Below, in pieces: positions 1,252 through 28,031 of a stretch of DNA of 50,537 nt. Location: contig CADBUP010000123.1 of NCBI GenBank assembly GCA_902797885.1, positions 1-50,537 of the forward strand, read 5' to 3'. The notes beneath the pieces are model-generated. The model ran no database searches. It was not told where the DNA came from and worked only from the letters and a program-made list of their open reading frames with translations. This DNA comes from an uncultured Ruminococcus sp. Lineage in GTDB: Bacteria > Bacillota > Clostridia > Monoglobales > Monoglobaceae. A program made the translations under genes and the position numbers. Numbering within the stretch: position 1 is the stretch's first letter; every line of letters begins with the position of its first letter.

Positions 1252-1265
1252 GGAGGAAGTAAAGA

Positions 1266-2135: not shown

Positions 2136-2192
2136 AAATTATTAAGTTTTACATATTAACAAAATGACCATATTCAAAAGGAGGATTTTTAA

Positions 2193-3740: not shown

Positions 3741-3804
3741 TAGTTTTATAAAAAATAAATAGATGATTGTAAAATAAAGAAATCGAAAGCTCTGGGTAAC
3801 TCAT

Positions 3805-3990: not shown

Positions 3991-4113
3991 AGCGGTGGAG
4001 GGATTAAAAAAAGCGGAGAAAAGTATTATACATTAACAAGAAAAACCGCTTGGAATCAACATTTTCAGACTTTTACAATCGGTTAAAATAAATAAAATGA
4101 AGGGAGCAAGCAT

Positions 4114-6108: not shown

Positions 6109-6190
6109 AAATTCAAAAATATAAATAGGACCTCGGGGGAAGACTCTGAAAAAATTGCTTTTAAGGCATAAAAAAGAAAGGACTATTAAA

Positions 6191-8623: not shown

Positions 8624-8633
8624 TCAAAACGTC

Positions 8634-8720
8634 TGACGAAAGGCTCCATTGCCGGTGGCAACCATTTATCGCCGACCGAGGCGGCAGCCGAGATAAGGCA
8701 AGCGCAATGCGCTTGACGGA
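8634..8720. repeat. Repeat remnant related to the 3.9-kb cluster
   Basis: AAAGGCTCCATTGCC here matches the same string at about 3919-3933. GGTGGCAACCA and ATCGCCGACCG also echo GGCGGCAACCA and ATCGCCGACCG in the earlier cluster. It fills most of the gap between the cohesin-type gene and the large beta-helix gene. CAAGCGCAATGCGCTTG at 8699-8715 is a perfect hairpin that could act as a terminator or processing site. Confidence 0.55.
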
Positions 8721-8771
8721 GGGAATTCACAGGAGAAATTCAGCGGCGCATGAAATAAAAGGCGGTGAGAT

Positions 8772-11700
8772 ATGAGGATAAGAAAATCATTCGCGCTTAT
8801 ATTTCTGTTTTTCATTTTGTTCAATTCGGTTAATGTTGACGCCTACTATAAAGAGAACGGAACAAGATATTTAAGCAGTTATTTCGGCGATGAAAATTCG
8901 GTTGTTCCCGAGACGGTATCGGGAGAATGGAATATTATCGAAGAGAGCGGAAGCGTATATAAGGAATATGATTTTTCTCAGATAAAAGATTTAAAGATTA
9001 AAACGGGCGCGGTCTCGGTTTCCGATGGAGAGCTTGTGGGAAACTCCACAGGCGGGGCAACCGAAACATTTTTCGGAGATGAAGAATTTTCAGACTTTGA
9101 GATTGAGCTGGATGTGACCAATGTCGAAAGCGACGGAGGCGGAAGCACATCGGTTGCGCTCAGATATGTTGATTCAAACAACAGAACCTCGGTCTTGCTG
9201 AACGAAAACGGCTCGCTTCAAGTAATGAAGGTAAGGAATGGAATAAGAAACTATCCGTTGATAACCTCCGGGATTGAGGTCGGAAAAAAGGCACGTCTGA
9301 GAATAAGGTGCAGCGGTTCCCAAATTTATATATGGATAGACGGAAGGCTAAAGGCACAGGCTCAGACGATTCTCGACCAGCCGAGAGGAAAATGTGGATT
9401 TATGAGTTGGAAGATGGCATACAAGGCTGATAATGTGAAAATATCAAAGCCTAAACCCTATGGCTTCGGGAAAAGATATGCGCATACAAAGGATAACGAA
9501 AAGGCATATGCCATCGCCGGCGACAGCGATATGACTGATGTAAGCATAGCCGTTTCCGCGGCTTTTAAAGAAAGCGCAGGCGCGGGAATAGCACTTAGGG
9601 CGGACAGGAGCGGAAACGGATATTTCGCCGTTTTCGATGGAAAAACGGCGAAAATCGAAAAGCGGAAAAACGGAGTGAAAACAGAGCTTTCAAAGACAGC
9701 CTTGACGCTTGAAGATTATATGCTAAAGACCGTTAAGCTTATCGCCGACGGGAAGAAGCTTATCTTAGAGGCGGATAACAAACAAATCCTTTCCGCTGAG
9801 GACGCGGATTTTAAGTCGGGATATGCGGCGTTTTTCTCTGACGGTTCGGAAATCATAGCCGAGAGGTATTGGATAAACAAGCTTGACGCCGAATTAAAAA
9901 AATACACGTCATTGGGCCACAGAACGTATTACGTCAGCGCCGAGGGCGATGATTCAAACGATGGGTTAAATGAAAAAAGAGCATGGAAAAGTATAGATAA
10001 GGTAAACAGCGTTGAGTTTAAACCCGGCGATAAGATATTATTCAGAAGAGGCGATGAATTTTTCGGATATTTAAAAATCAATAAGTACAGCGGAAAAGAT
10101 GACAGCGGTATTACCTACGGCGCATACGGAGACAGCACAAAGGATAAACCGATTCTATACAATAACGGAACGGTTGTGACTATTGAGGATGTTTCGCACA
10201 TAACGGTCGAGAACCTTAAGGTTTTCACCAAATGCAATACCGGGCGGCTGAGTATGAATTTCGGCGGAGGAAGCGGAATAAACATAAAGGCGAATCAGAA
10301 CAAAACCCCGAATATCTTAATGGAGGATATAACCGTCAGAGACTGCGAGATATATTCAAACACGGCGGACTCGTATACCTATGGAATAGTTTACGGAGTG
10401 AACTATAAAAAGAGTACCTGCACACAGGGTGACTGCTTTATAAAAAATGTCAGAATAGAGGATAATTACACTCACGATTTAGGCGTCTACGGCATAGGGA
10501 CGGTCAGCTGGAATACGGATAAAGGCGGCGGAGAATCGCACGTTGAGGGAATGCTCAGAAACGTTCATATTTCGGGAAACAGAGTGGAGAGAATCAGCAG
10601 TATAGGCCTGTGTATAAACGGGGTCAGTGATTCGGTCATAGAGAGAAATGTTATAAAACAATGCGGTATTTATAACAAAGAGGATTCCCCCAAATGGGGC
10701 GTCGGCGGCTGTTTTATAGGAAACAGTGCAAACTGTATTATCCGGTTCAACGAATTTTCGGAAAGCAGGGACGGAAGCATCGGCATAGACGCCGGCGGAT
10801 TCGGGCTCGACTGGGGAATACACGACGTTACCTTTATCTATAATGAAACGCACCATAATATGGGAGCGGGAATCCATACAATGGGCAACCACGACAATCA
10901 GATTTTATATAACAAGATTCACCATAACTATGAGCTGACAAGTGCGGTCGGAGGTGTAGGTATCACCGATTATAAAGGCACGGGGGATATAAAGGGTCAG
11001 AAGAATATGTATGTTAAGGGAAATGTTATTACATTAAACTATGACCGAACCGTCGGAATCGCGCTTCAAAACACCTCAAACAACGGATTTTCGGGAATAA
11101 GCTATGAGGATAACACAATAGTTATATCGAAAGAGCCTGAGGAGGATGAGATGACAAGGACTCATACAAAAAGCTCTGAAAGCAGGTATTATTCCTCGGA
11201 CGGCTCGATTATAAGCGGCACCCCGATGAGACTGGTGTTTGATATACCGACAAAAACCTCGGTTGAATCGATTACCGGAACGAAGGTGTTTACCGAGGAC
11301 GGATTTAAGGCCGCTAAGGACGGTATTGTTTATGAAACAAGAGAAGAGTGGCTTGAAAAAACAGGCTTTGGCGATAGCCTTGAAGTTGTAAATTCGATAA
11401 ATAATACGAAGCCCGATAAGCCGAAAAATTTTTCGGCAGAGGCGAAACCATTCGGCATAGCTCTCAAGTGGGAGGCCGTTTCCGGGGCGGCACATTATAA
11501 CATATACCGCGGCGAAATGCCCGATTTTGAATCGCGTTATATCACTATGATAGGCGAAGCACATAACGGAGAGGTCGGTTTTACCGACAGAGACACAGAG
11601 GAGGGGAAGACCTATTATTATCGCATCGAGGCCGAAAACGAATGCGGAATAAACGGAAGTTCCTCAGACACGGTCAGCGTTATTGCTATAAAAAAAGAGA

Positions 11701-12674
11701 ATCTTCAAAGTATAGGATATACAACCGTGTTTGATATGACGGGCGGCGACAGGCCGAATAGGCTTCCCGATAGTCTTGAAGGACTTATAACCCGGGACGG
11801 AACAAATGAGAATAATAAGCCGTCTGTCGAGAGCGACAGAATCAGATTTGATTCGACAACGGGAAGGGGTGACGAAAGCAAGGCCGTGTTCAATATGCCG
11901 TCCGCACGGAATTATGACGTGTCATTTAAGGTCAGGTTTACTAAGGCAGTTTCCGGAACCTTAAACAAATACGGAAATATGAGATTGTGTCTCAGAACTG
12001 GAGGTACTCCGGCAGGAACAAAGGAAACAAAATATTATGCCTTTAATATGAGCTCAGCTCCGGATTATGTCGGTGCAACAATGTACCGAGCCGATTTGGG
12101 ATTGGTTACAGATAAATTAAATGTATACGGAGACAGGATCTTTAAGCTGAACCGCGAATATGAGGTCGTTGTTAAGACTTATGATATGCCCGATGAGCCG
12201 GACAGCGTTAAAACGGAGGTATATCTTGACGGAGAGCTGTATTCTGAGTACAAGCATAAATCCGAAAAAGACTATTCAAAAAAGGAAGCCGGCGGACTTG
12301 AGTTTTTAGCAACAGGAACAGCGTTCGATATAACGGATTTAAAAATTTGCGTTGCTCCGCAGGAGCTGATGAGGGTTTATGAAACAGGCGAGGAGAGTAA
12401 CAAGAGAATCGAAGCGGAGTTTGACTACCCATTTACCTCACTCGATTCGGTTGATTTAGACGAACTCAGCGTTGTTTCGGCGTTATATGAGAGCGGAAGG
12501 CTCAAGGCGGCAGAGGTCTTCCCCGCACCGGCGGTAAAATTAAAAATCACGGATGAGCCTGTTGTTGGAACCTATGATATTTTGAAAAAACGCGGCGAAT
12601 CAGATTCCGCGAGGGTTTTTCTTTGGAATATGAAGAAGCTTTCACCATATGCGGTGAAAAACACTATTAATTAA
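8772..12674 (+). CDS. Giant secreted right-handed beta-helix protein, copy A
   Basis: A 1300-aa exported protein with a signal peptide ending near residue 24 (NVDA/YYK). Residues about 60-225 and 232-375 are two concanavalin/LamG-like domains (YDF, then SDFEIELDV and ETFFG; GYFAVFDGKTAKIEKR). About 385-830 is the pectate-lyase-type beta-helix, opening with YYVSAEGDDSNDG and AWKSIDKVN and carrying Asn/Gly-rich coils such as VSWNTDKGGGE and NYTHDLGVYGIG. About 884-975 is FnIII (ALKWEAVSGAAHYNIYRGE). About 983-1200 is the beta-sandwich module shared with the cohesin protein upstream. It has no SLH repeats, unlike its paralogue 19 bp downstream. It starts the long probable operon. Polysaccharide lyase or glycan-binding activity is likely by architecture but no catalytic residue was identified. 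Confidence 0.78.
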   Translation: MRIRKSFALIFLFFILFNSVNVDAYYKENGTRYLSSYFGDENSVVPETVSGEWNIIEESGSVYKEYDFSQIKDLKIKTGAVSVSDGELVGNSTGGATETFFGDEEFSDFEIELDVTNVESDGGGSTSVALRYVDSNNRTSVLLNENGSLQVMKVRNGIRNYPLITSGIEVGKKARLRIRCSGSQIYIWIDGRLKAQAQTILDQPRGKCGFMSWKMAYKADNVKISKPKPYGFGKRYAHTKDNEKAYAIAGDSDMTDVSIAVSAAFKESAGAGIALRADRSGNGYFAVFDGKTAKIEKRKNGVKTELSKTALTLEDYMLKTVKLIADGKKLILEADNKQILSAEDADFKSGYAAFFSDGSEIIAERYWINKLDAELKKYTSLGHRTYYVSAEGDDSNDGLNEKRAWKSIDKVNSVEFKPGDKILFRRGDEFFGYLKINKYSGKDDSGITYGAYGDSTKDKPILYNNGTVVTIEDVSHITVENLKVFTKCNTGRLSMNFGGGSGINIKANQNKTPNILMEDITVRDCEIYSNTADSYTYGIVYGVNYKKSTCTQGDCFIKNVRIEDNYTHDLGVYGIGTVSWNTDKGGGESHVEGMLRNVHISGNRVERISSIGLCINGVSDSVIERNVIKQCGIYNKEDSPKWGVGGCFIGNSANCIIRFNEFSESRDGSIGIDAGGFGLDWGIHDVTFIYNETHHNMGAGIHTMGNHDNQILYNKIHHNYELTSAVGGVGITDYKGTGDIKGQKNMYVKGNVITLNYDRTVGIALQNTSNNGFSGISYEDNTIVISKEPEEDEMTRTHTKSSESRYYSSDGSIISGTPMRLVFDIPTKTSVESITGTKVFTEDGFKAAKDGIVYETREEWLEKTGFGDSLEVVNSINNTKPDKPKNFSAEAKPFGIALKWEAVSGAAHYNIYRGEMPDFESRYITMIGEAHNGEVGFTDRDTEEGKTYYYRIEAENECGINGSSSDTVSVIAIKKENLQSIGYTTVFDMTGGDRPNRLPDSLEGLITRDGTNENNKPSVESDRIRFDSTTGRGDESKAVFNMPSARNYDVSFKVRFTKAVSGTLNKYGNMRLCLRTGGTPAGTKETKYYAFNMSSAPDYVGATMYRADLGLVTDKLNVYGDRIFKLNREYEVVVKTYDMPDEPDSVKTEVYLDGELYSEYKHKSEKDYSKKEAGGLEFLATGTAFDITDLKICVAPQELMRVYETGEESNKRIEAEFDYPFTSLDSVDLDELSVVSALYESGRLKAAEVFPAPAVKLKITDEPVVGTYDILKKRGESDSARVFLWNMKKLSPYAVKNTIN

Positions 12675-12693
12675 GTAACAGAAAGGATAGAAG

Positions 12694-15600
12694 ATGATGA
12701 AATTTAAAAGAGTTTTGGCTTCAACGCTTATGCTGTTAGTCATTTTGTCCTCGTTTGACGGAGCCTTTGCACAGGTGACTACACCCAACACGTATTGGAA
12801 GGAAAGCAAGGAATATTATCTTAACAGCAGGTTCGGTGATGAGACCTCAGTCAAGCCCGAAGAGACAGAGGGAAAGTGGGAAACCATTAACGAGGAGGGA
12901 AGCCTGTACAGGGATTATGATTTTGACAGCGGAGCCAAGGATTTGTATTTTAAATCCGGCAACGTGAAGATTGTTGACGGAGAGCTTGTCAATTCAACCG
13001 TTAAAGGAACAAGCGAGACGTTTTTCGGGAACGAAATCTATTCGGATTTTGAAATTGAGTTTGATCTGACAATGACAGAGTCGGGCGGCGGCGGAAGCGT
13101 CAGTTTGGGTGCAAGATACAAGGATAGCGACAACCGTATATCATTTATGTTTACCGATGCAAAAGTTACTCAGATCTTGAAATATCAGGACGGGGTAAAG
13201 AAGTATGCGGTAACGTTAGGCGGTATCGAGATGAATAAGAAGGCACACATTAAGGTAAGGTGCTATGGCAGGCAGCACGATATATATATAGACGGAAAGC
13301 TTAAGAATCATGCGAACGAGCAGATGATTTTCCCCGAAGGAAAGCTCGGTATATTAAGCTGGAACATGGCATATAAGCTTGACAATGTAAAGATAAAAAC
13401 CCCTAAGGCATACGGCTACGGAAAAAAGTATGCGCATCTTGAAAGCGGCGAAAAGGCCCTTGCGCTTGTCGGGAAAAGCGATATGGAAAATATCAGTGTA
13501 ACAACCGACATGTCTCTCTCGAACAGCAACGGCGGAGGTATCGCGGTGCGCGCGGACAAAAACGGAAACGGATACTTCGCCGTTATGGACGGAAAGTATG
13601 CGCGGATTGAAAAGAGACAGGACGGAAAGATAAGCGTTTTGGAAAGGACCAAGCTTGAGACGGGAGACTATGAGCCGATAACCTACAAGCTTATTGCCGA
13701 TAACGAAAAGCTTATTTTAGAGGCGGATAACAAACAAATCTTATCGGTTAAGGATAAGGATTTTAAATCGGGCTATGCCGCGATGTTTTCCGACGGCTCG
13801 TGTGTGGTGTATAACAACATTATAGTCCAAAAGCTGAAGGAGCTGTTTGATACATATAACTCAAAAGGAAACACCACATATTATATCAGCGCCGACGGCG
13901 ATGACTCAAACAGCGGAACAAGCGAGGACAAGGCGTGGAAAAGTATAGGTAAGGTGAATTCGGTGAAGTTTGCGCCCGGGGATAAGGTCTTATTCAGAAA
14001 GGGCGATGAGTTTTACGGCTATTTAACAATAAGCCGTCAGATGGGCGGAAAGAACGCCCCAATTGTGTACGGCTCTTATGGCGATGCAGAGACGCCGCCC
14101 ATACTCACGAACTTCGGACAGGTAATATACTTAACCGATTCTTCGTATATAACGGTTGAGAATCTCAAGATTTTTGCCCAAACCAACGCCGGCCGCACGG
14201 ATAACTTCGGCGGAGGCGGAGGCATTACAATAAGAGCACATCAGCAGTGGTATCCGAATGAGGTTATGGAGGACATCACCGTCAGAGGCTGTGAGGTATA
14301 CAGCTCGCATTATGACACAAACACAGGCGGAATAACAATCGGAGTTGAACACGTCCCCGGCACATATGAGGCCGAGAAGGATAGCTTTATCAGAAATATG
14401 AAGATAGAGAACAACTATACTCACGATTTAGGCATCTACGGCATCGGCGCGCTCAGCTGGAATATGGCGAAGGGCGGCGGCGAGATGTATGTTCCCGGAC
14501 TTATAACAAAGGCGCATGTAGCCGGAAACCGAATAGAGAGGGTATCGAGTATCGGTTTGTGCATTAATGGATATAGTGATTCGGTAATAGAGAGAAACGT
14601 TGTAAGACGCGGCGGAGCATATGACCAGGATGACACACCGAACTGGGGAGTCGGCGACGGATTTATCGGAAACTCGTCATATACCGTTGTTCAGTTTAAT
14701 GATTTCGGATATTCAGAGGACGGACACGTGGGCATTGACGCCGGCGGCTTCGGACTTGACTATGGTATACACGATGTAATATATCAGTATAATGAGAATC
14801 ATTATAATATGGGCACGGGACTTCATACGATGGGCAATCGCGATAACAAGATTCTTTATAATAAAATGCATCATAACTATGAGCTGACAAGTGCGGTCGG
14901 AGGTATAGGTATTACCGATTTCCAAGGAACAGGCGATATAAAGGGTCAGAAGAATATGTTTGTTAAGGGAAATGTGGTAACGCTCAACTTTGACCATACC
15001 GTCGGCATAGCAACTCAGAACACAAGTAACAATCCGTATGTCGGTGTAAGATATGAAGATAATACCATAGTTATACCAAAAGAGCCTGAGCAGGACGAGA
15101 TGACAAAAACCCATACAAAGAGTAAAGCGGCAGCTTATTATAATTCGGCCGATTCGGTTCAGGCCGACGGCCCGATGAGACTTGTGTTTGACATTCCTAA
15201 GGGAACGGCGGTCGAATCGATTACCGGAACAAAGGTGTTTACCGAGGACGGCTTCAAGGCCGCAAAGGACGGAATGGTCTATAACAGCCGCGAGGAATGG
15301 CTTGAAGCGACGGGGTATGACGATGAGCTTTCGGTTGTAAACAGCATAGACTACAGCAAGCTCCCCAAACCCGGGAACTTTAAGGTAACAGCGGGCGCAG
15401 GCGGAACTCAGCTCAGCTGGGATGCCGTTCCGGGAGCGGCGCATTACAATCTTTACAGAGGTGAAACGCCCGATTTTGAATCGCGTTATATCACTATGAT
15501 AGGCGAAGCCCGCGACGGCGCGACAACCTTCACCGATACCTGTGAGCAGGAGGAGGGAAAGACCTATTATTATCGAGTTGAAGCCGAAAACGAGTGCGGA

Positions 15601-16176
15601 ATAGACGGAGAGTCGTCGGATACGCTGAGCGTTGTTGCCGAAAATACGAGCGAGAGCAGTATTTCAGCCGAGCTCAGCAAGGAAATGAAGTATCTGGCAA
15701 GGGAAGGCATAATCAAGGACGGACGCCCGAACGATATTATCACAAGGGCAGAGGCCGTTACCGCCGCGATAAGAGCTGTCAGCCTTGAAACAACCGAGTA
15801 TAAAAGTATTTATGCCGATACAAGCGGTGACGATTGGTATGCGTCGGCCGTTCAGACGGCAAACGATTATGCGATTGTTCCGCCCGAAATGATAGAGGAC
15901 AGACAATTTAAGGCAGACAGAGCAATTTCAAGAGAGGAGGCCGCGGCGGTAATTTTCAGGCTTACCGAAATGCGCGGAGCGGCACCCGGCGGAGAGGAAA
16001 GGCAATTTAACGATGAAGGAAATATTTCGCAGTGGGCATATTATCCTTGCAAAAAACTTGCTGAATTTGGTATAATAGAAGGTGATTATAATAATTGCTT
16101 CAACCCCGGGGCAAATATAACAAGAGAAGAATTTGCCTTAATGCTTTACAGATTTATAAGACTGACGGGGAGGTAA
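12694..16176 (+). CDS. Giant SLH-anchored right-handed beta-helix protein, copy B
   Basis: An 1160-aa paralogue of the preceding protein, with the same order: signal peptide (to about residue 26), two LamG-like domains, beta-helix from about 394 (YYISADGDDSNSG, AWKSIGKVN) and FnIII from about 892 (LSWDAVPGAAHYNLYRGE). The C-terminus differs: from about 993 to 1160 there are three SLH repeats (KYLAREGIIKDG.., ITRAEAVTA; WYASAVQTAND; ISQWAYYPCKKLAEFGIIEG, ITREEFALMLYRF). SLH domains hold proteins to secondary cell-wall polymers, so this copy should sit on the cell surface. GAAAGGA precedes two adjacent ATGs (12694, 12697); either may be used. Stretches of near-identical DNA to copy A suggest duplication followed by gene conversion or constraint. 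Confidence 0.8.
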   Translation: MMKFKRVLASTLMLLVILSSFDGAFAQVTTPNTYWKESKEYYLNSRFGDETSVKPEETEGKWETINEEGSLYRDYDFDSGAKDLYFKSGNVKIVDGELVNSTVKGTSETFFGNEIYSDFEIEFDLTMTESGGGGSVSLGARYKDSDNRISFMFTDAKVTQILKYQDGVKKYAVTLGGIEMNKKAHIKVRCYGRQHDIYIDGKLKNHANEQMIFPEGKLGILSWNMAYKLDNVKIKTPKAYGYGKKYAHLESGEKALALVGKSDMENISVTTDMSLSNSNGGGIAVRADKNGNGYFAVMDGKYARIEKRQDGKISVLERTKLETGDYEPITYKLIADNEKLILEADNKQILSVKDKDFKSGYAAMFSDGSCVVYNNIIVQKLKELFDTYNSKGNTTYYISADGDDSNSGTSEDKAWKSIGKVNSVKFAPGDKVLFRKGDEFYGYLTISRQMGGKNAPIVYGSYGDAETPPILTNFGQVIYLTDSSYITVENLKIFAQTNAGRTDNFGGGGGITIRAHQQWYPNEVMEDITVRGCEVYSSHYDTNTGGITIGVEHVPGTYEAEKDSFIRNMKIENNYTHDLGIYGIGALSWNMAKGGGEMYVPGLITKAHVAGNRIERVSSIGLCINGYSDSVIERNVVRRGGAYDQDDTPNWGVGDGFIGNSSYTVVQFNDFGYSEDGHVGIDAGGFGLDYGIHDVIYQYNENHYNMGTGLHTMGNRDNKILYNKMHHNYELTSAVGGIGITDFQGTGDIKGQKNMFVKGNVVTLNFDHTVGIATQNTSNNPYVGVRYEDNTIVIPKEPEQDEMTKTHTKSKAAAYYNSADSVQADGPMRLVFDIPKGTAVESITGTKVFTEDGFKAAKDGMVYNSREEWLEATGYDDELSVVNSIDYSKLPKPGNFKVTAGAGGTQLSWDAVPGAAHYNLYRGETPDFESRYITMIGEARDGATTFTDTCEQEEGKTYYYRVEAENECGIDGESSDTLSVVAENTSESSISAELSKEMKYLAREGIIKDGRPNDIITRAEAVTAAIRAVSLETTEYKSIYADTSGDDWYASAVQTANDYAIVPPEMIEDRQFKADRAISREEAAAVIFRLTEMRGAAPGGEERQFNDEGNISQWAYYPCKKLAEFGIIEGDYNNCFNPGANITREEFALMLYRFIRLTGR

Positions 16177-16199
16177 GCCCACGAAAGGCGGCGTTTTGA

Positions 16200-17936: not shown

Positions 17937-17963
17937 CTGAGATAATTCAAGGAGGAATTGTGT

Positions 17964-18722
17964 ATGCCTTATAGTGTTTTGCTTGTGGATGATGAGAAAT
18001 ACGCACTGAAAAATCTTGAGCACATAATTAATTGGGCTGAGCTCGATTATGAAATATGTGCAGCCGTTTCGAGTGGCCGGGACGCTCTTTCATATATAAA
18101 AAAGTCTCAGCCGGATTTGATTGTTTCGGATATTCATATGTATGATATGGACGGACTTGAAATGCTTGAAGAAATCAGAAAAACGGGCGGAAAAACAGCT
18201 GTGATTTTCGTTAGTGCTTATGATAAATTTGAATATGCACAAAAAGCAATTACATTAGGGGCGTTGGAATATCTCTTAAAACCCGTCAGCGCGGATAAGC
18301 TCAGGGAGACGCTGATGAGGATTAAACCGATTTTGAAAAATAATATTACTAAGTTTGAGAAGGAAAACAATTACGTTATTGATCGGATTATAAAGAAAAT
18401 AAAGAGTGACTGCGGCGGAAAGCACGTGTTGAGCGAATATGCCGCACAGTACAAGCTGACCCCGAATTATCTCGGAAACTTATTTAAGAAGGTTACCGGA
18501 ATGAGCTTTATAAGCTACCTGCTGAAGGTCAGAATGGAAAGAGCGGCGTTTCTGATGAAAAACACGGATAAGTCGCTTGAAGAAATAGGCGCTGAATGCG
18601 GATATGACGATTATTTTCACTTTAATAAGATGTTTAAAAAGATTATGGGGGTTCCGCCTGCAACGTTCAGACGGAGTGCATCAGCAGAAACTGAAAAGAG
18701 AGAGGATGATGACAATGCTTAA
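17964..18722 (+). CDS. YesN-type response regulator with AraC DNA-binding domain
   Basis: A 252-aa response regulator. The receiver domain occupies about residues 1-120, with the acidic pair VDDEK at the start, the phosphoacceptor Asp56 (IVSDIHMYDMDG), and the switch and lysine motifs IFVSAYDKFEYAQKA and YLLKPVS. The C-terminal 100 residues hold the two AraC helix-turn-helix motifs (LSEYAAQYKLTPNYLGNLFKKVTG and SLEEIGAECGYDDYFHFNKMFKK). It is short because the long linker of classical YesN proteins is missing. ATG 17964 follows GGAGGA by 7 nt; TTG at 17958 is an unlikely alternative. Its stop overlaps the start of the next SLH gene by 8 nt. It is probably phosphorylated by the upstream kinase and activates the local glycan genes. 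Confidence 0.93.
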   Translation: MPYSVLLVDDEKYALKNLEHIINWAELDYEICAAVSSGRDALSYIKKSQPDLIVSDIHMYDMDGLEMLEEIRKTGGKTAVIFVSAYDKFEYAQKAITLGALEYLLKPVSADKLRETLMRIKPILKNNITKFEKENNYVIDRIIKKIKSDCGGKHVLSEYAAQYKLTPNYLGNLFKKVTGMSFISYLLKVRMERAAFLMKNTDKSLEEIGAECGYDDYFHFNKMFKKIMGVPPATFRRSASAETEKREDDDNA

Positions 18723-21339
18723 AAAAATAACAGCGGTGCTGCTTATTGCAGTTATGATATCGGGGGCTTGCTATGCCATTCCGATAGATGTGAGCGGTGA
18801 AGATTTTGAAAACGAAGCGTGTCTTGTTACTGCGTTACAGATTATGAGTAATTATAGTGATAATACCTTTAGAGGTGAAATGAGTGTAAAAAGAGGCGAA
18901 CTGGCGGATATTGCGGTTAAGATGCTTGGCTATAAGGCTGACTATATTGAAAGCGGTATATACTTTAAGGATGTTCCTACTTCCGATAAAAACAGAAACA
19001 GTATCTATATGGCCGCCGCACTTGGAATTATGCTCGGAACAGATGAGTATATATTTGAGCCGGATGTGCCTATTAAAGTAAATGAAGCGGCGACAGTAAT
19101 GGTAAGAGTTCTCGGCTATGGTGATTATGCCAATCAGAACGGCGGTTATTCATCGGGACATATGAAGGTCGCTGTTCAAAAAGATATTCTGTCGGGATTA
19201 AACGACGGGGCGAAAACTCTGACGCGGGGCGAAGCGGCGAAGATGATATTCAATACTCTTACCGCTCAAAGGCTCAGACAAGTATCATTCGGCGATACAA
19301 CAAGGTTTGAAGCCAATGATGAACATACTCTTTTAAAGGATATATTTGATGTGTATGAAATCGAGGGAATAGCGGAGGAAGACAGCAAGGCGAATATATA
19401 TTCGACAAAGCCTCAGTATTCGCTGAATGATAATGAAATCTATATAAACGGAACAAAAATAAAGGTTGACTCGAATACAAGCGATATGCTCGGCAAAAGC
19501 ATAAAGCTCTATGCAAGGTATGATGAAAAGACTCAGGAATATACGTCTTTGTATTATTATGACGGGAAGGATACAAATGTTTATGAGACAGACGCATCAG
19601 ATGCAGAGTTTAAGAGTGACACACTTCAAATAATATATACTGATGAAATAACCGCGAAGGATAAAACATTAAACATAGATGAAAATGCTTCGGTAATGGT
19701 CAACGGTCAGTATTTTGACCGAATTTATGCTAAGATGGCTCAGGACCTGCTGAAAACGAGGGCAAGTAGAAAAATCCGATTTGTCGACAATAACGGAGAC
19801 AGGCGTGCGGATGTAATTTTTATAAAAAATTCGGTTACATATGTGGTAAAGTCGGCCTCTGTATCGGGGGAAATTATAAATGACAGGTATGGAAATCCTT
19901 CGTTAAAGCTTGACGAGTATGATGCGGTTGAAATTTATGATGCTGACGGAAAAAGGATAACGCTTGCGGACATCAGCATGGACGATATTCTTTCGGTAGA
20001 GAAGGTATCGGACAAGTCGCTGATCAGGATATACCGCTCGAACAAGAGGGTTAAGGGAGCTGTATCGGAAATTGACTCGGATAATAATGTTAAAATTAAT
20101 AATGTGAAATACAAGATTTCAGAGGCATACACGGAGGCGCTGAAAAAGAAATACACGGATGAAATTAAAATAGGCGAGGACGTTACGGCATACATGGACG
20201 TATACGGAGAGGTCGGATATGTAAAGAAGAAAAGCGCAGAGCTTTACGGATATGTAATAGATTTAAAATATGAAACAGTATTCGGCGAAAGTCTTAAGCT
20301 CGGAATCTTTGATTCGGATGGCGTATATAAGGTATACGAGCCCGCAAGAAAGGTGACGTTGGTTGACGAAACGTGTAAGGAGACGGAATACAGCGAAGGT
20401 TCGGGGTTTGAGAAGATTTATAAGAGCCTTTTAAGCTCTGATGAAAAGGTGAGAAAGCTAATAAAGTTTGAAGTTAACGGAAGCGGACAAATTAAACGGA
20501 TTGAGCTCTGCAAGAATTTATCATCGGACCCGAATGCCGAGTATAATAAGACAAACGGTTTCACGAAATATGAAAAGGGCGGATATTATATGTTTAATCG
20601 GTTGTTCAAGGGAAAGTACAGAATTACCGATGACACAGCCGTTATGCTTGTTCCAAATGATAATTCGCTGAAAGACGATTATGATACGGCGGGCGTTTCG
20701 TATTTTCAAAAGGATACAAAGTATAATATAGAGATTTATGATTTGAATGAAATGTATGAGCCTTCTTTAATAGTTGTAAACGGCGGTTCAAAGGGTCTGA
20801 GCGAATCGACCGCCCCGGCGGTGGTTAAATCCGTATCAAGCACGCTTGACAAGGAGGGGAATACGGTTACCTCGCTTGAACTGTACAGAAATAAAAAGAC
20901 GTATAGGGCAAGCGGGGAAAACGATATAGTTTCTGAGAGTAACGGAAAATTCCCCGAAATTAAAATTACGGATTTACAGCCGGGGGACATAATCCAGAGC
21001 GATGCCTCGGCCGACGGAGAAGTTCTGAAAAAATTCCGGGTTCTGTTCAGAGCGTCATACACGGGCGAAGCGTTTAACAGCGAGGAACCAAATACAATGA
21101 CAAGTATTCCGAATAAGAGCCTTGCGTATGCATATGCCACGCTGACAGCGGTAGGAAGCGACAGCGCGCTGTTTAACATGGATGGAATAAAATGTATTAA
21201 TAATGCGGCAGAGGTTTTGACCTACAACAAAGACCGCGATATATTGGAAAGTGACGGTTATTCGGCATTGGAGGTCGGAGACAAGGTGTTTGTGTGCTGG
21301 ATTTGGTCGGGTCCGAACATGGTAATAAAGTACAAATAA
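18715..21339 (+). CDS. SLH-domain surface protein, function unknown
   Basis: An 874-aa exported protein with a signal peptide (MLKKITAVLLIAVMISGACYA). Three SLH repeats follow directly at about residues 25-170 (VKRGELADIAVKMLGYK, IYMAAALGIMLG, TLTRGEAAKMIFNTL). The remaining 700 residues are beta-rich with many short Lys/Asp/Tyr-containing strands and recurring OB-like phrases (VKGAVSEIDSDNNVKINNV, GYVIDLKYE). I see no enzyme motif. N-terminal SLH placement suggests a wall-attached spacer or receptor. ATGs at 18706, 18709 and 18715 are in frame after GAGAGAGG; I prefer 18715 because it opens a clean signal peptide. The start lies inside the last codons of the response regulator, implying translational coupling. 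Confidence 0.82.
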   Translation: MLKKITAVLLIAVMISGACYAIPIDVSGEDFENEACLVTALQIMSNYSDNTFRGEMSVKRGELADIAVKMLGYKADYIESGIYFKDVPTSDKNRNSIYMAAALGIMLGTDEYIFEPDVPIKVNEAATVMVRVLGYGDYANQNGGYSSGHMKVAVQKDILSGLNDGAKTLTRGEAAKMIFNTLTAQRLRQVSFGDTTRFEANDEHTLLKDIFDVYEIEGIAEEDSKANIYSTKPQYSLNDNEIYINGTKIKVDSNTSDMLGKSIKLYARYDEKTQEYTSLYYYDGKDTNVYETDASDAEFKSDTLQIIYTDEITAKDKTLNIDENASVMVNGQYFDRIYAKMAQDLLKTRASRKIRFVDNNGDRRADVIFIKNSVTYVVKSASVSGEIINDRYGNPSLKLDEYDAVEIYDADGKRITLADISMDDILSVEKVSDKSLIRIYRSNKRVKGAVSEIDSDNNVKINNVKYKISEAYTEALKKKYTDEIKIGEDVTAYMDVYGEVGYVKKKSAELYGYVIDLKYETVFGESLKLGIFDSDGVYKVYEPARKVTLVDETCKETEYSEGSGFEKIYKSLLSSDEKVRKLIKFEVNGSGQIKRIELCKNLSSDPNAEYNKTNGFTKYEKGGYYMFNRLFKGKYRITDDTAVMLVPNDNSLKDDYDTAGVSYFQKDTKYNIEIYDLNEMYEPSLIVVNGGSKGLSESTAPAVVKSVSSTLDKEGNTVTSLELYRNKKTYRASGENDIVSESNGKFPEIKITDLQPGDIIQSDASADGEVLKKFRVLFRASYTGEAFNSEEPNTMTSIPNKSLAYAYATLTAVGSDSALFNMDGIKCINNAAEVLTYNKDRDILESDGYSALEVGDKVFVCWIWSGPNMVIKYK

Positions 21340-21369
21340 TATAGTGTGAAAGCGGAGGAGTGAAACGGT

Positions 21370-23340
21370 ATGAGAACAAAAATATTTGCATCGGCGCTTG
21401 TGTGTTGTATTATGCTTGGATTCTGTACCCTACAGGGATTCGCCGATGAGGTCATAAATGAAAATGATACACCGATAATTTTTTCGGCGGATAGAGCAGA
21501 GGGAAAAGGCTGGGAAACAGCCGATGACGGGAAAACAATTAAAAAGACCGACAAGAGTGATACGGGAAGCATAAGCTTCGGCAGTAAGGAGTGGTCCGGT
21601 ACAGCGCTTAAGCTTAAGTTAAAAACGGACGACATAACAAGCGGAGGAATTATGATTAGGCTTAACGCCGATGAAAACGGCGGCGGTTACGGCTTATATA
21701 TTTTGCCGGATGACGCGAGATGGGACAGTATTTTATATAAATACAAATCAAACGGAACAAGAGAACAGCTCGGTAGTAAAACAGAGGATACTTTTAAAAA
21801 CGGACAAAGCTATAATATAGAGTTTTCGGCAGACGGAGATAATGTGACCGTTAAAGCAGGCGGCAGAGAGCTTTATAATATAGCAGACAGCACATATAAT
21901 AAGGGCCTTGTGCAAATCGATATTTTAAAGGCAAAGGCAGAAATATCAGAGGTTAAAGTAACCGCAACGGTTGTTATTCCGGATGAGCAGCAGGAGCTTT
22001 ACGATAAAATCAAAGGTGAGTTAAAAACATATGAGGATGACAGCACTTCGGTTCCGGATAAAACTCAGTTAAAAGCCCTTCTGTCTGAAATTTCAAAGGT
22101 TACATATGAGGTCAGAAGAAACGAGCTTCAGGCGCGGATGGATAAAATAGTTTCCGAAAGAATAAAAAGCAGTATTTCGGCGGACTATGATCGTGTTAAT
22201 AACAAAATTAAAATAGAAGGAAGTGTGTACTCCGTCAGGAATAAGGCGGTAAGCGCAGATGTTATCAACGCGGCGGGAAATAATGTGGGAACACTCACTC
22301 TTCCGTCGGCTGATGAGGTCGGAGAGTTTTCATATACGGTGGACTTTTTAAAGCAGGCTCCCGTGGGAATCTACAAGCTGAAGGTCGGAGACGCCGAATG
22401 CAGCTTTGAGGTGACGCTCCCATCGTCGGACGGAACAATAAAATCATTTAAAATAGACGGAGTACAGGGAACCGTTTCAAACGGAGAGATAAGCGTTGTT
22501 CTTTCTTCAAACTCCGCTCTCGATGAAAAAACCGTTATATTTGAATTAACCGATGCCAAGGCTCATATGGAATTCACCGACGGAAAGCAGATTATAAGCG
22601 GTGTAACAAAAATAGACGTAAGCAAAGAACAGAAGCTTTTTGTTGTTGCCGAGAACGGAACAAAAACAGAGTATACGCTAAAGGTTTCGAAATCCTCCGG
22701 TAATCAGGGCGGCGGAACAGGCGGCGGAACAGGCGGCGGAACAAGCGGACGCGGTTCGGGCGGACATGTGATAAGCGGCCTTGCGCCGGGCGGAAAAGGG
22801 CCGGCCGAAACGGTAAAATATTTTGATGATTTGGATGATTGCAGCTGGGCAGAGCCTTATATCAATTCTCTGTATACATCGGGTGTTATAAACGGTGTTT
22901 CGGATAGAAAATACGACCCGAACGGTCTTGTGACGCGTGCCGAGTTTGTTAAAATGGCGGTCGGCGCATTTGAAATTAAAAACAGTTCGGCGGAGTGTAA
23001 TTTTGATGATGTTGACAGGTCGGATTGGGCATATCCGTTTATCGCCGCGGCGGTTGAAGAGGGAATCATAAAAGGCGAAAGCGATTTCGTTTTCGGAAGG
23101 GATAACAATATATTAAGACAGGACGCGGCGGTTATTCTTCATAGAATAATAGGCGGCGCTTCGGATGCAAAAATCAGTTTTTCGGACGCAAAGAGCATAT
23201 CCGACTATGCCATAGATGCGGTCGGGGCGCTTTACTCAAGGGGGATTATGACAGGTGACGAAAACAATTGTTTTAATCCGTTAGAATCTCTGACACGTGC
23301 CGAGGCCGCAAAGATTATATGCCTCGGAATGAACGGCTGA
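21370..23340 (+). CDS. SLH-anchored surface protein with LamG-like domain
   Basis: A 656-aa exported protein. The signal peptide is about 1-25 (TLQGFA/DEV). Residues about 28-200 resemble a concanavalin/LamG domain (SGGIMIRLNADENGGGYG, ELYNIADSTYNKGLVQ). A helical segment follows, then Ig-like beta-domains (SFKIDGVQGTVSNGE, KTEYTLKVSK), then a flexible Gly/Thr linker at about 447-465 with repeated GGGT units. Three SLH repeats close the protein (about 483-656: WAEPYINSLYTSGVINGVSD, LVTRAEFVKMAVGAF, LTRAEAAKIICLGMN). The layout, ligand module to linker to wall anchor, suggests a cell-surface carbohydrate-binding protein. GGAGGAG is 9 nt upstream of the ATG. It lies 30 bp after the preceding SLH gene and 28 bp before a GH2 gene. 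Confidence 0.84.
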   Translation: MRTKIFASALVCCIMLGFCTLQGFADEVINENDTPIIFSADRAEGKGWETADDGKTIKKTDKSDTGSISFGSKEWSGTALKLKLKTDDITSGGIMIRLNADENGGGYGLYILPDDARWDSILYKYKSNGTREQLGSKTEDTFKNGQSYNIEFSADGDNVTVKAGGRELYNIADSTYNKGLVQIDILKAKAEISEVKVTATVVIPDEQQELYDKIKGELKTYEDDSTSVPDKTQLKALLSEISKVTYEVRRNELQARMDKIVSERIKSSISADYDRVNNKIKIEGSVYSVRNKAVSADVINAAGNNVGTLTLPSADEVGEFSYTVDFLKQAPVGIYKLKVGDAECSFEVTLPSSDGTIKSFKIDGVQGTVSNGEISVVLSSNSALDEKTVIFELTDAKAHMEFTDGKQIISGVTKIDVSKEQKLFVVAENGTKTEYTLKVSKSSGNQGGGTGGGTGGGTSGRGSGGHVISGLAPGGKGPAETVKYFDDLDDCSWAEPYINSLYTSGVINGVSDRKYDPNGLVTRAEFVKMAVGAFEIKNSSAECNFDDVDRSDWAYPFIAAAVEEGIIKGESDFVFGRDNNILRQDAAVILHRIIGGASDAKISFSDAKSISDYAIDAVGALYSRGIMTGDENNCFNPLESLTRAEAAKIICLGMNG

Positions 23341-23368
23341 TTTTAAATCGCACAGCGGAGGATGAAAA

Positions 23369-25681
23369 ATGAAGTATTTAATTGACAGACAGTGGAAGTT
23401 TTCAAAAACAGAATCGATTGACAAATTGGCAAACAATTCGTTTTCAAAATCGGGTTGCTGCAGAGGCGTTATGGGTGAGGAATTTGATGATTCAAGCTGG
23501 AGGACGGTTGACCTTCCTCATGACTTTGTAATGGAGGCGGATTTTTCAGAGTGCTTGGATGGATGGGACGGCGGAGATGACGATATTCCGCAAATGGATG
23601 AGATAAAGAACCTGCATTCGGCGCTTGGCTCTAAGAATCGCTCTGTCGGGTGGTACAGAAAGAAGCTGGTTATCGATGATAAACACAGCGGAAGCAGAAT
23701 ATTTATTACATTTGACGGTGTGTACCGTGACAGCAGGGTATATATTAACGGATTTTTTATCGACAGACATTTAAGCGGTTATACCGGTTTTTCGTATGAT
23801 ATAACCGATTTTGTAAGGTTCGGAGAGGAAAACACAATAGTGGTATTCTGTGACGCGCGCGAAACAGAGGGCTGGTGGTATCAGGGCGGAGGGATATACC
23901 GCCATGTTTATCTTGAGGTCAAGCCCCGGACTCACATTGTGAGAAACGGAATTTATGCCTTTGCCCGGCTCTCCGATGACAGAAAATCCACGGTAGTTAC
24001 AGTAGAAACAACGCTTAAAAGCTATGAGCCAAAGGCCTTGACAGAGATAAAAACAAGGCTGACGGGCGAGAATGCGCCGGTCGGCTTTGAAACAGAAAGA
24101 GTATCGCTTTTGTACGGTGAAACAAGGAGCATAGTTCAACACATCAAAATTGAAAATCCGATTCTTTGGGATGTTGAAAATCCGTATCTCTACAGGCTCA
24201 CCGTCACAACGTCGGAGGGAGAAAGCGAGAGCGTCTGCATAGGTATAAAAGAGCAGAAGTTTGATAAAGAAAACGGATTTTTGTTAAACGGAAGGCGGGT
24301 TAAAATAAAAGGATGCTGTCTGCATCAGGATTTCGGCGGTCTTGGTATTGCCTTGCCTGACGGGATTATGGAATATAAGATAAAACAGATGAAGAGTATG
24401 GGATGTAATGCTATCCGTATGTCACATAACCCTGTTGCGAGGGAGCTTCTTGACGCGTGCGATCGGGAGGGAATGCTTGTTATGGCTGAAACAAGATTAT
24501 TTTCAAGCGCACCCGAGGATATGCGTCAGCTTATCGAGCTCGTAAAATATAACAGAAATCACGTATCGATTATTCTTTGGAGCATAGGAAACGAAGAAAC
24601 AAGAACTCAGGGAACGCGCATAGGCGCGAATATTGCGGCAAGTATGAACAGAGCAATCAAGGCGCTTGATTTAAGACCCGTAACCATGGCATTTTTGTTT
24701 TGGAATTTTCAAAAATGCTGTGCTATCGATGATGTCGGCCTTGTGTCGGAGGCGGCAAGGGAAACAGATGTGTTCGGAATAAATTATTATACGGCGATAT
24801 GGGAAAAAATAAAGGAATACTATAAAATGCCGATAATCTGTACCGAACACAGATCGCTTCCGCAGACCAGGGGATGTTATATCTCCGACAAAGAAAAGTG
24901 CACGGTCGGAATTATGGATAGTGAAAACGGATTGTTTTATCTTATGGGCGAGAATGAGTGGAGGTATGTTAATTCGCACGATTACGTAAGCGGTTATTTT
25001 ATATGGACCGGAATGGATTATTACGGAGAGCCTACGCCGTATACATATCCGGCTGTATCCTCTCAATTCGGAGCATTGGATCTCTGCGGATTTGAAAAAG
25101 ATGCTTATTATTATTTTAAAGCGTGGTGGAGCAGAGAAAAAGTGTTGCATATTCTTCCACATTGGAACCGTATAGACGGATTAAACGAAACGCGTGATGT
25201 ATGGTGCTTTACGAATGCGGATTCCGCTGAGTTGTTTGTAAACGGAAAAAGTATGGGAAAACAGAGCTGCGAAAAGGACGGCCATATAGTATGGAAGGCG
25301 GTTCCTTATTCCGAGGGATATGTTTCGGTCAGAGGTTTTTGGAATGATAATTCAACTCAGGAGCGCCGCATAGAAACAACCGGCCCGGCAAGCCGCATCC
25401 GCTGTGAAACAAAATATGAGTTTGAGGACGCTGACTTTTTATATAAGCTGATATGTGTATATGCCGAGGATGACAAGGGAAGAAGAGTTCCGGATGCAGA
25501 CAGCCCGTTTGAAATAAAATGTACGAACGGTGCATGGACGGCATTTTCAAACGGAAATCCCGCTTGTCATTTAAACCCGGATACATATGAGGGCTGTTTG
25601 TTCAACGGACTCGCTATGGTAATTGTAAAAATCGAAAAGAATTCGGCCGGGACTGCGATGATTGCCGGTATTGAGGTATAA
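23369..25681 (+). CDS. Glycoside hydrolase family 2 enzyme, first copy
   Basis: A 770-aa protein without a signal peptide, so probably cytoplasmic. It has the GH2 order: sugar-binding jelly roll (SWRTVDLPHDFVME, FDGVYRDSRVYINGFFIDRHLSGY, GWWYQGGGIYRHVYL), immunoglobulin-like domain (NPILWDVENPYLYRLTV), TIM barrel from about residue 310 (NGRRVKIKGCCLHQDFGG, NAIRMSHNP), and a C-terminal Ig-like domain. The acid/base is probably Glu409 in SIGNEETRT and the nucleophile Glu493 in IICTEHRS. Such proteins are beta-galactosidases, beta-glucuronidases or related exo-enzymes; the exact sugar is not readable. GCGGAGGA lies upstream. It probably trims oligosaccharides brought in by the nearby importer. 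Confidence 0.9.
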   Translation: MKYLIDRQWKFSKTESIDKLANNSFSKSGCCRGVMGEEFDDSSWRTVDLPHDFVMEADFSECLDGWDGGDDDIPQMDEIKNLHSALGSKNRSVGWYRKKLVIDDKHSGSRIFITFDGVYRDSRVYINGFFIDRHLSGYTGFSYDITDFVRFGEENTIVVFCDARETEGWWYQGGGIYRHVYLEVKPRTHIVRNGIYAFARLSDDRKSTVVTVETTLKSYEPKALTEIKTRLTGENAPVGFETERVSLLYGETRSIVQHIKIENPILWDVENPYLYRLTVTTSEGESESVCIGIKEQKFDKENGFLLNGRRVKIKGCCLHQDFGGLGIALPDGIMEYKIKQMKSMGCNAIRMSHNPVARELLDACDREGMLVMAETRLFSSAPEDMRQLIELVKYNRNHVSIILWSIGNEETRTQGTRIGANIAASMNRAIKALDLRPVTMAFLFWNFQKCCAIDDVGLVSEAARETDVFGINYYTAIWEKIKEYYKMPIICTEHRSLPQTRGCYISDKEKCTVGIMDSENGLFYLMGENEWRYVNSHDYVSGYFIWTGMDYYGEPTPYTYPAVSSQFGALDLCGFEKDAYYYFKAWWSREKVLHILPHWNRIDGLNETRDVWCFTNADSAELFVNGKSMGKQSCEKDGHIVWKAVPYSEGYVSVRGFWNDNSTQERRIETTGPASRIRCETKYEFEDADFLYKLICVYAEDDKGRRVPDADSPFEIKCTNGAWTAFSNGNPACHLNPDTYEGCLFNGLAMVIVKIEKNSAGTAMIAGIEV

Positions 25682-25694
25682 AAAGGGGAAAATG

Positions 25695-28031
25695 ATGAGA
25701 GAGAAAATATTGTTTGATGATAATTGGTTGTTCCATAAAGGGGATATAGATATAAAATTTCCTTTGGATAAAGGGCCTGTCTATGCTCAGTCTAAGACAG
25801 AGCGAATGATGTGGGGTCCCGCTTCGCGGTGCTATAAGGCTGTTCCTGATAATTACGGATATTCGTTAAATACGGATTTGTGGGAGTATGTTACCATTCC
25901 GCATGATTATGTTATAGATCAGAAACCGTCAAAGAATGAGAATAACGCTCTCGGCTTTTTTAAGTATGAGAATGCATGGTACAGAAAAATATTTAAGTTG
26001 TCACCGGAGGACAAAAATAAGCGAATAACGCTTATTTTTGACGGCGTTGCAACGCACGCCACCGTGTATGTAAACGGATGTCTTATGAAGCATAATTTTT
26101 GCGGCTATACGACTTTTGAGGTGGATATAACGGATGTTGTTGATTTCGGCGAGACCGAAAATCTTCTTGCGGTATATGTCGAAACAAACAGCCATGAAGG
26201 CTGGTGGTACGAAGGCGGCGGAATTTATCGTCATGTCTGGCTGAAGAAAACGGATCTCATAGCCGTTGATTTATGGGGAGTTTATGTTTCGCCGGAAAAA
26301 ATTAATGACACATTGTGGAATGTCAGATGTGAAACCACAATCTTAAATGACAGATATGAAGACGCTGATGTCGAATACAAAACCGTCATTAGAGATGCGG
26401 ACGGAAATCACATAGGCGAAGCATCAGGGAGGATTATGATTCCGCTTCGTGAGAAGAAAACGGCGATATATAATATTCGGGTGGAAGCCCCGATTTTATG
26501 GGATACCGAAAATCCGTATCTGTATGCGGTCGAAACAGTTATTTCGTCCTCCGGCAATGAATGCGATATTTATAAAACACGAACCGGCTTTCGCACATTT
26601 GAAATTGACCCCGACAAAGGATTATTTTTAAACGGAAGACATATTAAAATAAAGGGTGTTTGCGCACATCAGGACTTTGGACTTACCGGAAAGGCTGTTC
26701 CCGATAATATTCATCGGTATAAGGTCGAAATGATAAAAGAGATGGGCGCAAACGGGTATCGCACAAGTCACTATCCCCAGACCGAAGCAATAATGGATGC
26801 CCTTGATGAGCTTGGATTTATTGTTATGGATGAAACAAGGTGGTTTGAATCCACGGACGAGGGCAAGCAACAGCTTGAGATGCTGATTAAGCGTGACAGG
26901 AACAGACCTTCGGTGCTTTTTTGGTCAATCGGTAACGAAGAACCGCATCATATAACGGAAACAGGACGGCGTATCTGTAAAAATCTTATGGCGTTTGTGC
27001 GAAAGCTTGATAACACCCGTTTTATCACTACGGCGGTTTCGCATCCTCAGGATCTTGCCACCGTGCATGATGAGGTTGACGTAATAGGCATAAACTATAA
27101 TATCACCACATATGAAAGAATTCACAAAAAGTATCCGAATAAGGCAATAGTTTCTTCGGAATGCTGCGCGACCGGAAGCGTGCGCGGATGGTATGACGAT
27201 GCAAACGAGGAAAGAGCGTTCGCGACCGCTTATGATACAACCTCCAATACATGGTTCCGCGGCAGAGAGGAAACGTGGAAGTTTATGAGCGAACGCGAAT
27301 GGGTAGTGGGGTCGTATCAGTGGGACGCGTTTGAACACCGCGGTGAAACACTCTGGCCGAGACTTTGCTCGATTTCGGGGGCGATAGACCTATACCTGCA
27401 AAAGAAAGATGCGTTTTATCAAAATCAGTCACATTGGATTGAGACCAAACCGATAGTTCATCTCCTGCCACATTGGAATTTTGAAGGGCGTGAAGGTGAA
27501 CCGATAAGGGTTTGTGCATACACAAACTGTGAAGAACTTGAGCTTTATCTAAACGGCGTCAGCCTGGGAAAAAGGCAGATAGAGAGATTCGGCCACGGCG
27601 AATGGCTTGTTGAGTATAAACCGGGAGTATTAACGGCGGCCGCGCGGCGAAACGGCGAAACGGTCTGCACGGATTCACGCGAAACATCGGGAAGCCCCGT
27701 ATCGCTTAAGCTTAGACTTGAAAATAAGATTTCCTGCGCGAACGGCAAGGACGTGGCGGTTATTACCTGTTTCTGCACAGATGAACAGGGACGCGAGGTT
27801 CCGACAGCCACTCCGTTTGTAAGCTTCAACGCAAATAAATTGGGGAAGGTTATAGGAACGGGGTCGGATATAACCGACCATAACCCGGTGAGCTTACCTG
27901 ACAGAAGAATGAGGGCGGGAAGAATTACCGCCGCAGTTTTGGTAGGGAAGCAAGCGGGAAATCTGAAGGTGTATGCGAGCGCTGAAAATCTTAAAGGTGC
28001 GGTGCTCACAATTCCGTTGTCGGATGACTGA
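25695..28031 (+). CDS. Glycoside hydrolase family 2 enzyme, second copy
   Basis: A 778-aa GH2 protein paralogous to its upstream neighbour. Conserved blocks are LWEYVTIPHDYVID, FDGVATHATVYVNGCLMKHN, GWWYEGGGIYRHVWLKK, APILWDTENPYLYAVET and NGRHIKIKGVCAHQDFG. The acid/base is probably Glu415 (SIGNEEPHH) and the nucleophile Glu489 (AIVSSECCATG). No export signal is present. ATG 25695 follows AAGGGG by 6 nt; 25692 is an alternative, and the in-frame codon at 25662 would overlap the previous gene. It is the last gene of the long probable operon. The differing nucleophile surroundings of the two enzymes suggest different linkages or sugars. Confidence 0.9.
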   Translation: MREKILFDDNWLFHKGDIDIKFPLDKGPVYAQSKTERMMWGPASRCYKAVPDNYGYSLNTDLWEYVTIPHDYVIDQKPSKNENNALGFFKYENAWYRKIFKLSPEDKNKRITLIFDGVATHATVYVNGCLMKHNFCGYTTFEVDITDVVDFGETENLLAVYVETNSHEGWWYEGGGIYRHVWLKKTDLIAVDLWGVYVSPEKINDTLWNVRCETTILNDRYEDADVEYKTVIRDADGNHIGEASGRIMIPLREKKTAIYNIRVEAPILWDTENPYLYAVETVISSSGNECDIYKTRTGFRTFEIDPDKGLFLNGRHIKIKGVCAHQDFGLTGKAVPDNIHRYKVEMIKEMGANGYRTSHYPQTEAIMDALDELGFIVMDETRWFESTDEGKQQLEMLIKRDRNRPSVLFWSIGNEEPHHITETGRRICKNLMAFVRKLDNTRFITTAVSHPQDLATVHDEVDVIGINYNITTYERIHKKYPNKAIVSSECCATGSVRGWYDDANEERAFATAYDTTSNTWFRGREETWKFMSEREWVVGSYQWDAFEHRGETLWPRLCSISGAIDLYLQKKDAFYQNQSHWIETKPIVHLLPHWNFEGREGEPIRVCAYTNCEELELYLNGVSLGKRQIERFGHGEWLVEYKPGVLTAAARRNGETVCTDSRETSGSPVSLKLRLENKISCANGKDVAVITCFCTDEQGREVPTATPFVSFNANKLGKVIGTGSDITDHNPVSLPDRRMRAGRITAAVLVGKQAGNLKVYASAENLKGAVLTIPLSDD

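Follow-up and report, generated by a model that had tools for sequence, protein, structure and literature searches.

Gram-positive polysaccharide-utilisation loci (gpPULs), as defined in Roseburia and E. rectale, require a clustered enzyme, ABC (ATP-binding cassette) importer and regulator (PMC5320581). We analysed contig CADBUP010000123.1 of an uncultured Ruminococcus sp. (family Monoglobaceae) over its full 50,537 nucleotides (hereafter the window; contig C123 in full, from a genome of 2.58 Mb in 204 contigs that is 98% complete). A co-directional cluster of 13 genes covers 28 kb of its forward strand (292-28031) and contains the components of a gpPUL: two GH2 enzymes, two GH136-like proteins, LplB and LplC permeases with a solute-binding protein (SBP), and a YesM/YesN (YesMN) pair. 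The cluster differs from the loci of that study in two respects. LacI and AraC regulators operate there, whereas the window locus has a YesMN two-component pair, and it adds two surface-layer homology (SLH) proteins, here called SLH-N and SLH-C, SLH being unmentioned in PMC5320581. On balance, we favour the interpretation that the cluster is a gpPUL whose substrate is a galactose-containing glycan and whose surface frame is the recurrent SLH-N/SLH-C pair.

The cluster contains the following genes.

292-1251, + strand: LplB-type ABC sugar permease (PF00528, 3.6e-15)
1266-2135, + strand: LplC/YtcP-type ABC sugar permease (PF00528, 1.3e-13)
2193-3740, + strand: extracellular solute-binding lipoprotein, the SBP (PF01547, 1.2e-18)
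4114-6108, + strand: secreted small beta-helix/CBM4_9-like protein, 664 aa (weak Pfam matches, under cut-off)
6155-8623, + strand: secreted protein with a cohesin-like domain, 822 aa (PF00963, 2.3e-7)
8772-12674, + strand: GH136-like beta-helix protein, 1300 aa, secreted (Pfam and profile searches)
12694-16176, + strand: GH136-like paralogue, 1160 aa, with C-terminal SLH repeats (Pfam and profile searches)
16200-17936, + strand: YesM-type sensor histidine kinase (PF06580, 8.8e-21; PF02518, 5.1e-9)
17958-18722, + strand: YesN-type response regulator with REC and AraC HTH domains (PF00072, 3.9e-28; PF12833, 2.9e-22)
18706-21339, + strand: SLH-N, secreted, 877 aa (N-terminal SLH region and conserved body of ~690-700 aa)
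21370-23340, + strand: SLH-C, secreted, 656 aa (PF00395, 1.4e-38, and conserved module)
23369-25681, + strand: GH2, GalA-like beta-galactosidase-type (NF041462, 735 bits against a cut-off of 900; PDB 5t98, 3e-99; Pfam)
25692-28031, + strand: GH2, GalA-like beta-galactosidase-type (NF041462, 765 bits against a cut-off of 900; PDB 9bey, 1e-109)

The preliminary description dealt with the eight downstream genes (8772-28031). It pictured a glycan locus of closely spaced genes on one strand that includes YesMN, wall-anchored proteins and GH2 enzymes. This is borne out, and Pfam confirms the assignment of YesM/YesN, SLH and GH2 proteins; the kinase (His_kinase PF06580 and HATPase) adjoins the REC and AraC-HTH regulator. 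The description counted two SLH proteins, but there are three, since the 1160-aa beta-helix protein has C-terminal SLH repeats as well; this protein, SLH-N and SLH-C all exceed the PF00395 cut-off. The genome as a whole contains 60 SLH-bearing reading frames.

SLH-anchored glycan processing has a described counterpart in Paenibacillus sp. JDR-2, which has an SLH-anchored Xyn10A1, an aldouronate cluster and 77 SLH proteins in its genome (PMC4765114). As far as the accessible part of that report goes, this organism shares with the window SLH-anchored glycan-processing proteins, ABC importers and intracellular enzymes, but its anchored proteins are multimodular enzymes, the gene for the main one lies at a distance, and a recurrent non-enzymatic SLH pair is not described. 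The new element here is the recurrent SLH-N/SLH-C pair, gpPULs and SLH-anchored glycan systems being already known. To our knowledge, Gram-positive glycan loci are at present recognised only by mixed content (enzyme, transporter and regulator) and lack a hallmark gene pair. A search of the open-licence literature returned no paper joining Monoglobus with SLH and no description of an SLH pair as a glycan-locus hallmark, although such absence is weak evidence.

In SLH-N, a conserved body of predicted small beta-barrels comes after the N-terminal SLH region; this body has no sequence match in Pfam, NCBIfam or PDB. SLH-C of the window contains a conserved module (ConA-like and Ig-like), a Gly linker and three SLH repeats. 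The SLH-C proteins form a family of their own: in most partners a ~330-aa module lies ahead of three SLH repeats, and the N-termini are variable and in some loci carry CBM4_9, CBM9, F5/8C, Ig-like or GDSL-esterase domains.

The genome contains 16 or more SLH-N copies (13 by a profile of the body, three added by context), one of them a core copy considered below. SLH-C is the direct neighbour in 12 of 15 cases (chance P ~4e-16 in a rough model with ~60 SLH genes among ~2,450). Across several families, 29 of 34 non-core SLH-N copies directly adjoin an SLH-C gene on the same strand, and nearly all lie within two genes of one. This association also appears in 15 of 17 non-core copies from other genomes, whose loci were chosen by SLH-N match alone, blind to neighbours.

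The pair is a multicopy module, with approximately one pair per glycan locus and enzymes that differ between loci. Glycan genes (carbohydrate-active enzymes (CAZymes), importers or YesMN) surround 13 of the 15 non-core pair sites in the genome. Genes around pairs encode GH10, GH5-like, WbsX, CBM9, GH2 and beta-helix proteins, Lpl-type importers and AraC/YesMN regulators. Seven of nine YesM kinases are on pair-bearing contigs, five of them at most 10 kb from a pair. Two loci contain the same parts as the window locus in another order (C37, C44, C50, C56 and C62 denote other contigs of this genome). The C62 locus encodes a GH136-like protein with SLH repeats, SLH-N, SLH-C, YesM, YesN and GH2; the C44 locus encodes LplB, LplC, an SBP, two GH136-like proteins, an LnbY-like protein, SLH-C, SLH-N, YesM and YesN. 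The arrangement had been called unusual for a Gram-positive glycan locus, a view that is not supported: in this genome the SLH pair occurs at ~15 loci, at four of which it directly adjoins YesMN, and the layout is repeated in other Clostridia families.

Of 118 relatives, 68 carry SLH-N, and these extend to several other families of class Clostridia, with up to ~50 first-look candidates per genome. A phylum sample of 398 genomes contained SLH-N in just 11 other genomes, as weak, mostly partial matches. Judged by sequence matches, Monoglobaceae share the pair with other Clostridia families, and the phylum-wide sample almost lacks it. It could serve as a sequence signature for glycan loci in poorly known gut Clostridia, and it raises a testable question: how are glycan fragments held and passed across a thick wall? 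The cultured strain Ructibacterium gallinarum DSM 107454 (~46 first-look SLH-N candidates) is one carrier.

The SusC/SusD PULs of Bacteroidetes offer a parallel, as each glycan locus there likewise has one tandem gene pair, accompanied by enzymes that vary. The proteins are not homologous: SusC and SusD are an outer-membrane transporter and a lipoprotein, whereas SLH-N and SLH-C would act as wall-anchored SLH proteins, and the proteins of 292-28031 include no Pfam match to TonB-dependent SusC or to SusD lipoproteins. The genomic associations suggest that SLH-N/SLH-C may capture or organise glycan at the wall. We tentatively propose, as one possibility among several, that the pair is a functional Gram-positive counterpart of SusC/SusD, which would capture glycan at the wall and hand fragments over to the ABC importer, with one pair per substrate locus in Monoglobales and several other Clostridia families.

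Alternatively, SLH-N and SLH-C could be mainly structural, that is, S-layer or wall-cover proteins specific to each locus that diversify the surface and travel with glycan loci without a direct role in glycan capture. We consider this rather doubtful, as the location of 13 of 15 non-core pairs with glycan genes and the carbohydrate-binding and esterase domains of SLH-C partners in several loci both argue against it. Several observations nevertheless weigh against a role of the pair in glycan use, and the first three of them favour a structural one. First, the other two non-core pairs of the genome (on C56 and C50) lie among housekeeping genes. Second, the core SLH-N copy is family-wide, stands beside housekeeping genes facing a divergent ~610-aa protein with N-terminal SLH repeats, and, in all Monoglobaceae genomes examined, is separate from glycan genes. 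Third, the model of the SLH-N body (pLDDT 75, pTM 0.45) comprises small OB-like barrels only, without a confident fold match, and Foldseek and VIA-align likewise returned OB-like barrels only, at low TM-scores. The predicted barrel string suits a structural filler, but would fit a capture role just as well. Finally, the correlation between SLH-N and SLH-C distances (r 0.68 for all 30 pairs) is 0.06 (p 0.27) without close orthologues and ~0 within the genome. Tight co-evolution is thus unsupported, because the correlation rests on close orthologues only.

The core SLH-N may be the principal surface-layer protein in Monoglobaceae. Its records come from uncultured Monoglobus, Ructibacterium gallinarum, Candidatus Roslinia and rumen metagenome-assembled genomes. 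Core copies (L032:9042-14116 and loci L081-L115) are 47-74% identical across genera, with one divergent case at 40%, and the ~610-aa divergent SLH neighbour is present wherever the contig extends far enough.

It is also conceivable, if very improbable, that the locus remodels the cell's own envelope glycans instead of feeding on an outside glycan. SLH repeats bind pyruvylated secondary wall polymers, which together with the wall-bound proteins and YesMN would accord with remodelling. The dedicated importer and the cytoplasmic GH2 enzymes of beta-galactosidase type speak against it, as do the GH10 and GH5-like enzymes of sister loci.

The enzymes of the window locus invite comparison with the LnbX/LnbY and ErLnb136 loci (PMC7335108, PMC8106489). 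These share with the window a beta-helix domain with an Asp dyad seven residues apart, an ABC importer and a cytoplasmic galactosidase (GH42 in the E. ramulus locus). The dyad of ErLnb136 consists of D568 (acid/base) and D575 (nucleophile) (PMC7335108; PDB chain numbering is offset by 2). We built a profile from six domains: the two of the window, two encoded on C44, and one each from C62 and genome G059. GH136 structures match it along the entire domain at 5e-61 to 7e-45 (7v6m 5e-61, 6kqs 2e-52, 5gqc 6e-48), and other beta-helix enzymes at 1e-6 or weaker. The beta-helix domain is homologous over its length to LnbX/ErLnb136. A window-side profile, built from the window pair and the C62 domain only, also reaches the catalytic part of ErLnb136 (6kqs, second significant segment, i-E 2.4e-5, positions 66-323). 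Both profiles align D673/D680 of the 1300-aa protein and D682/D689 of the 1160-aa protein with D568/D575, and both aspartates are invariant in six of six aligned domains (three loci of the genome and G059).

The window proteins differ from GH136 enzymes in two respects. First, both lack the galactose-stacking Trp (ErLnb136 W548), with the Gly of 'FIGNS' aligned at this position (Tyr in C44). Second, the window contains no GH136I/LnbY partner, which is needed for GH136 activity; an NF047894 search found one copy genome-wide, in the C44 locus. Because the Trp platform is replaced and the partner is absent from the locus, we label the proteins GH136-like and not GH136. From these alignments, the 8772 and 12694 proteins can be regarded as remote homologues of GH136 lacto-N-biosidases and are probably enzymes. 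The wall-anchored set had been described as non-enzymatic; wall anchoring stands (SLH, Pfam), whereas a wholly non-enzymatic set is not supported, the beta-helix proteins being GH136-like with both catalytic aspartates.

A reading of these proteins as non-catalytic adhesins is unlikely in our estimation. It would account for the Gly in place of the substrate tryptophan, the missing partner and the very low identity to characterised enzymes, but not for the retention of both catalytic aspartates in all six aligned relatives or for their alignment with the ErLnb136 dyad by the window-side profile alone.

The two proteins are 65% identical over the GH136-like domain and, in contrast to GH136 enzymes, bear ConA-like, FN3-like and SLH modules. 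The 1300-aa protein has ConA-like N-terminal, FN3-like and ConA-like C-terminal domains and no SLH repeats; its C-terminal domain is shared with the 6155-8623 protein (E 5e-44). In a single-sequence PDB search, the lacto-N-biosidase match was confined to an N-terminal cap, which was not accepted alone because the cap motif is common to many other beta-helix proteins. AlphaFold2 prediction of the domain from two sequences gave pLDDT 45, and a contig scan using just two short peptide patterns found no close relatives of the two beta-helix proteins. Of 116 relatives, 3 yielded a full-length GH136-like domain and no genus mate did so, suggesting that these enzymes are a variable part of the locus. 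The LnbY/GH136I-like gene of C44 (L030:8106-9122; NF047894, 3e-14) adjoins two GH136-like beta-helix genes, and the C44 locus is, by its predicted gene content, a better candidate for true GH136 activity than the window locus.

Both GH2 proteins are nearest to GalA-type beta-galactosidases, yet fall under the NF041462 equivalog cut-off. The first contains NE (acid/base) and TEH (nucleophile) motifs and the second NE and SEC motifs. Neither shows a signal peptide by eye, and they are thus probably cytoplasmic.

These components suggest the following scheme. YesM would sense a glycan signal, and YesN would turn on the importer and surface genes. Two secreted GH136-like glycosidases, one held at the wall by its SLH repeats, could trim the glycan outside the cell. 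SLH-N and SLH-C, presumably anchored side by side in the wall, may display the glycan and its fragments, retain them or direct them to the Lpl-type binding protein and permeases. Oligosaccharides would then be imported by these proteins, and the two GH2 enzymes, cytoplasmic by prediction, may complete their breakdown.

The eight genes were described as lying on one strand with gaps of 30 bp or less and one overlapping pair, and this is accurate: successive spacings are 19, 23, 21, -17, 30, 28 and ~10 bp. The sole true overlap is the 17 bp between yesN and SLH-N, where ATG 18706, the best placed start for SLH-N, precedes the YesN stop at 18722. An apparent 20-bp overlap of the GH2 genes vanishes with ATG 25692, the most likely start of the last gene. 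The regulators had been considered apart from the importer; this needs qualifying, as the importer (292-3740) belongs to the same + strand cluster, 5 kb upstream of 8772.

Position 8772 is not a firm cluster start. It represents no natural edge, because the co-directional cluster opens at 292 and there is no clear break in 8623-8772; this 148-bp gap contains only a degraded dispersed repeat, and pattern scans found no promoter-like or terminator-like site in it. Promoter-like sites were detected at 4050-4089, and a transcription unit that runs to 28031 could begin at 292 or 4114 as plausibly as at 8772. Alternatively, the eight genes may form several transcripts, with yesMN and the SLH pair expressed separately under their own promoter, which is possible but on the doubtful side. 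An extended -10 match at 16047-16076, ~125 bp before yesM, is compatible with an internal promoter, and in the C37 locus YesMN and the SLH genes are divergently oriented. The short gaps and the yesN/SLH-N overlap favour joint transcription, as does the lack of terminator-like sites in the internal gaps by pattern scan. Promoter-like matches within coding sequence are slightly more frequent than in shuffles (54 versus 37.7, standard deviation 6.7).

Two features precede the importer.

155-180, + strand: intrinsic-terminator-like hairpin at the end of the upstream unit (pattern scan, 11-bp stem and T-run)
193-225, + strand: direct repeat AAAATCGTTGAT(T/G)A in tandem, with starts 19 bp apart (exact repeat in sequence)

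Within 193-259, two perfect 12-bp direct repeats are followed by a TATGAT -10-like hexamer at ~254. The repeat is a candidate YesN-type operator/promoter for the importer genes. As a lone motif its count shows no excess over chance, it is not repeated elsewhere in the window, and no direct-repeat operator was found upstream of the C44 importer.

A dispersed palindromic repeat (TTAGGCAAGGGGG / GGCTCCATTGCC type) occurs at 3820-4005 and 8628-8653, with ~10 further partial copies in the genome. Dispersed repeats fill the 373-bp gap at 3740-4114, separating the importer from the rest of the cluster.

The locus resembles clostridial cellulosomes in combining a cohesin-like domain (6155-8623) with SLH anchoring, though the genome has just two dockerin matches, none of them in the window. 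With one cohesin-like domain in the locus, a cellulosome reading was rejected.

Downstream of the cluster, 29007-29858 encodes an ABC-exporter ATPase whose membrane part is reduced to ~two helices leading directly into Walker A; this gene, beside a TetR gene, looks like an internal deletion remnant. Further carbohydrate genes were recognised by eye at 35130-36266 (alpha-galactosidase-like), 40238-41581 (alpha-amylase-like) and 42682-44739 (GH42-like), with several AraC regulators among them. This content suggests galactose-rich substrates.

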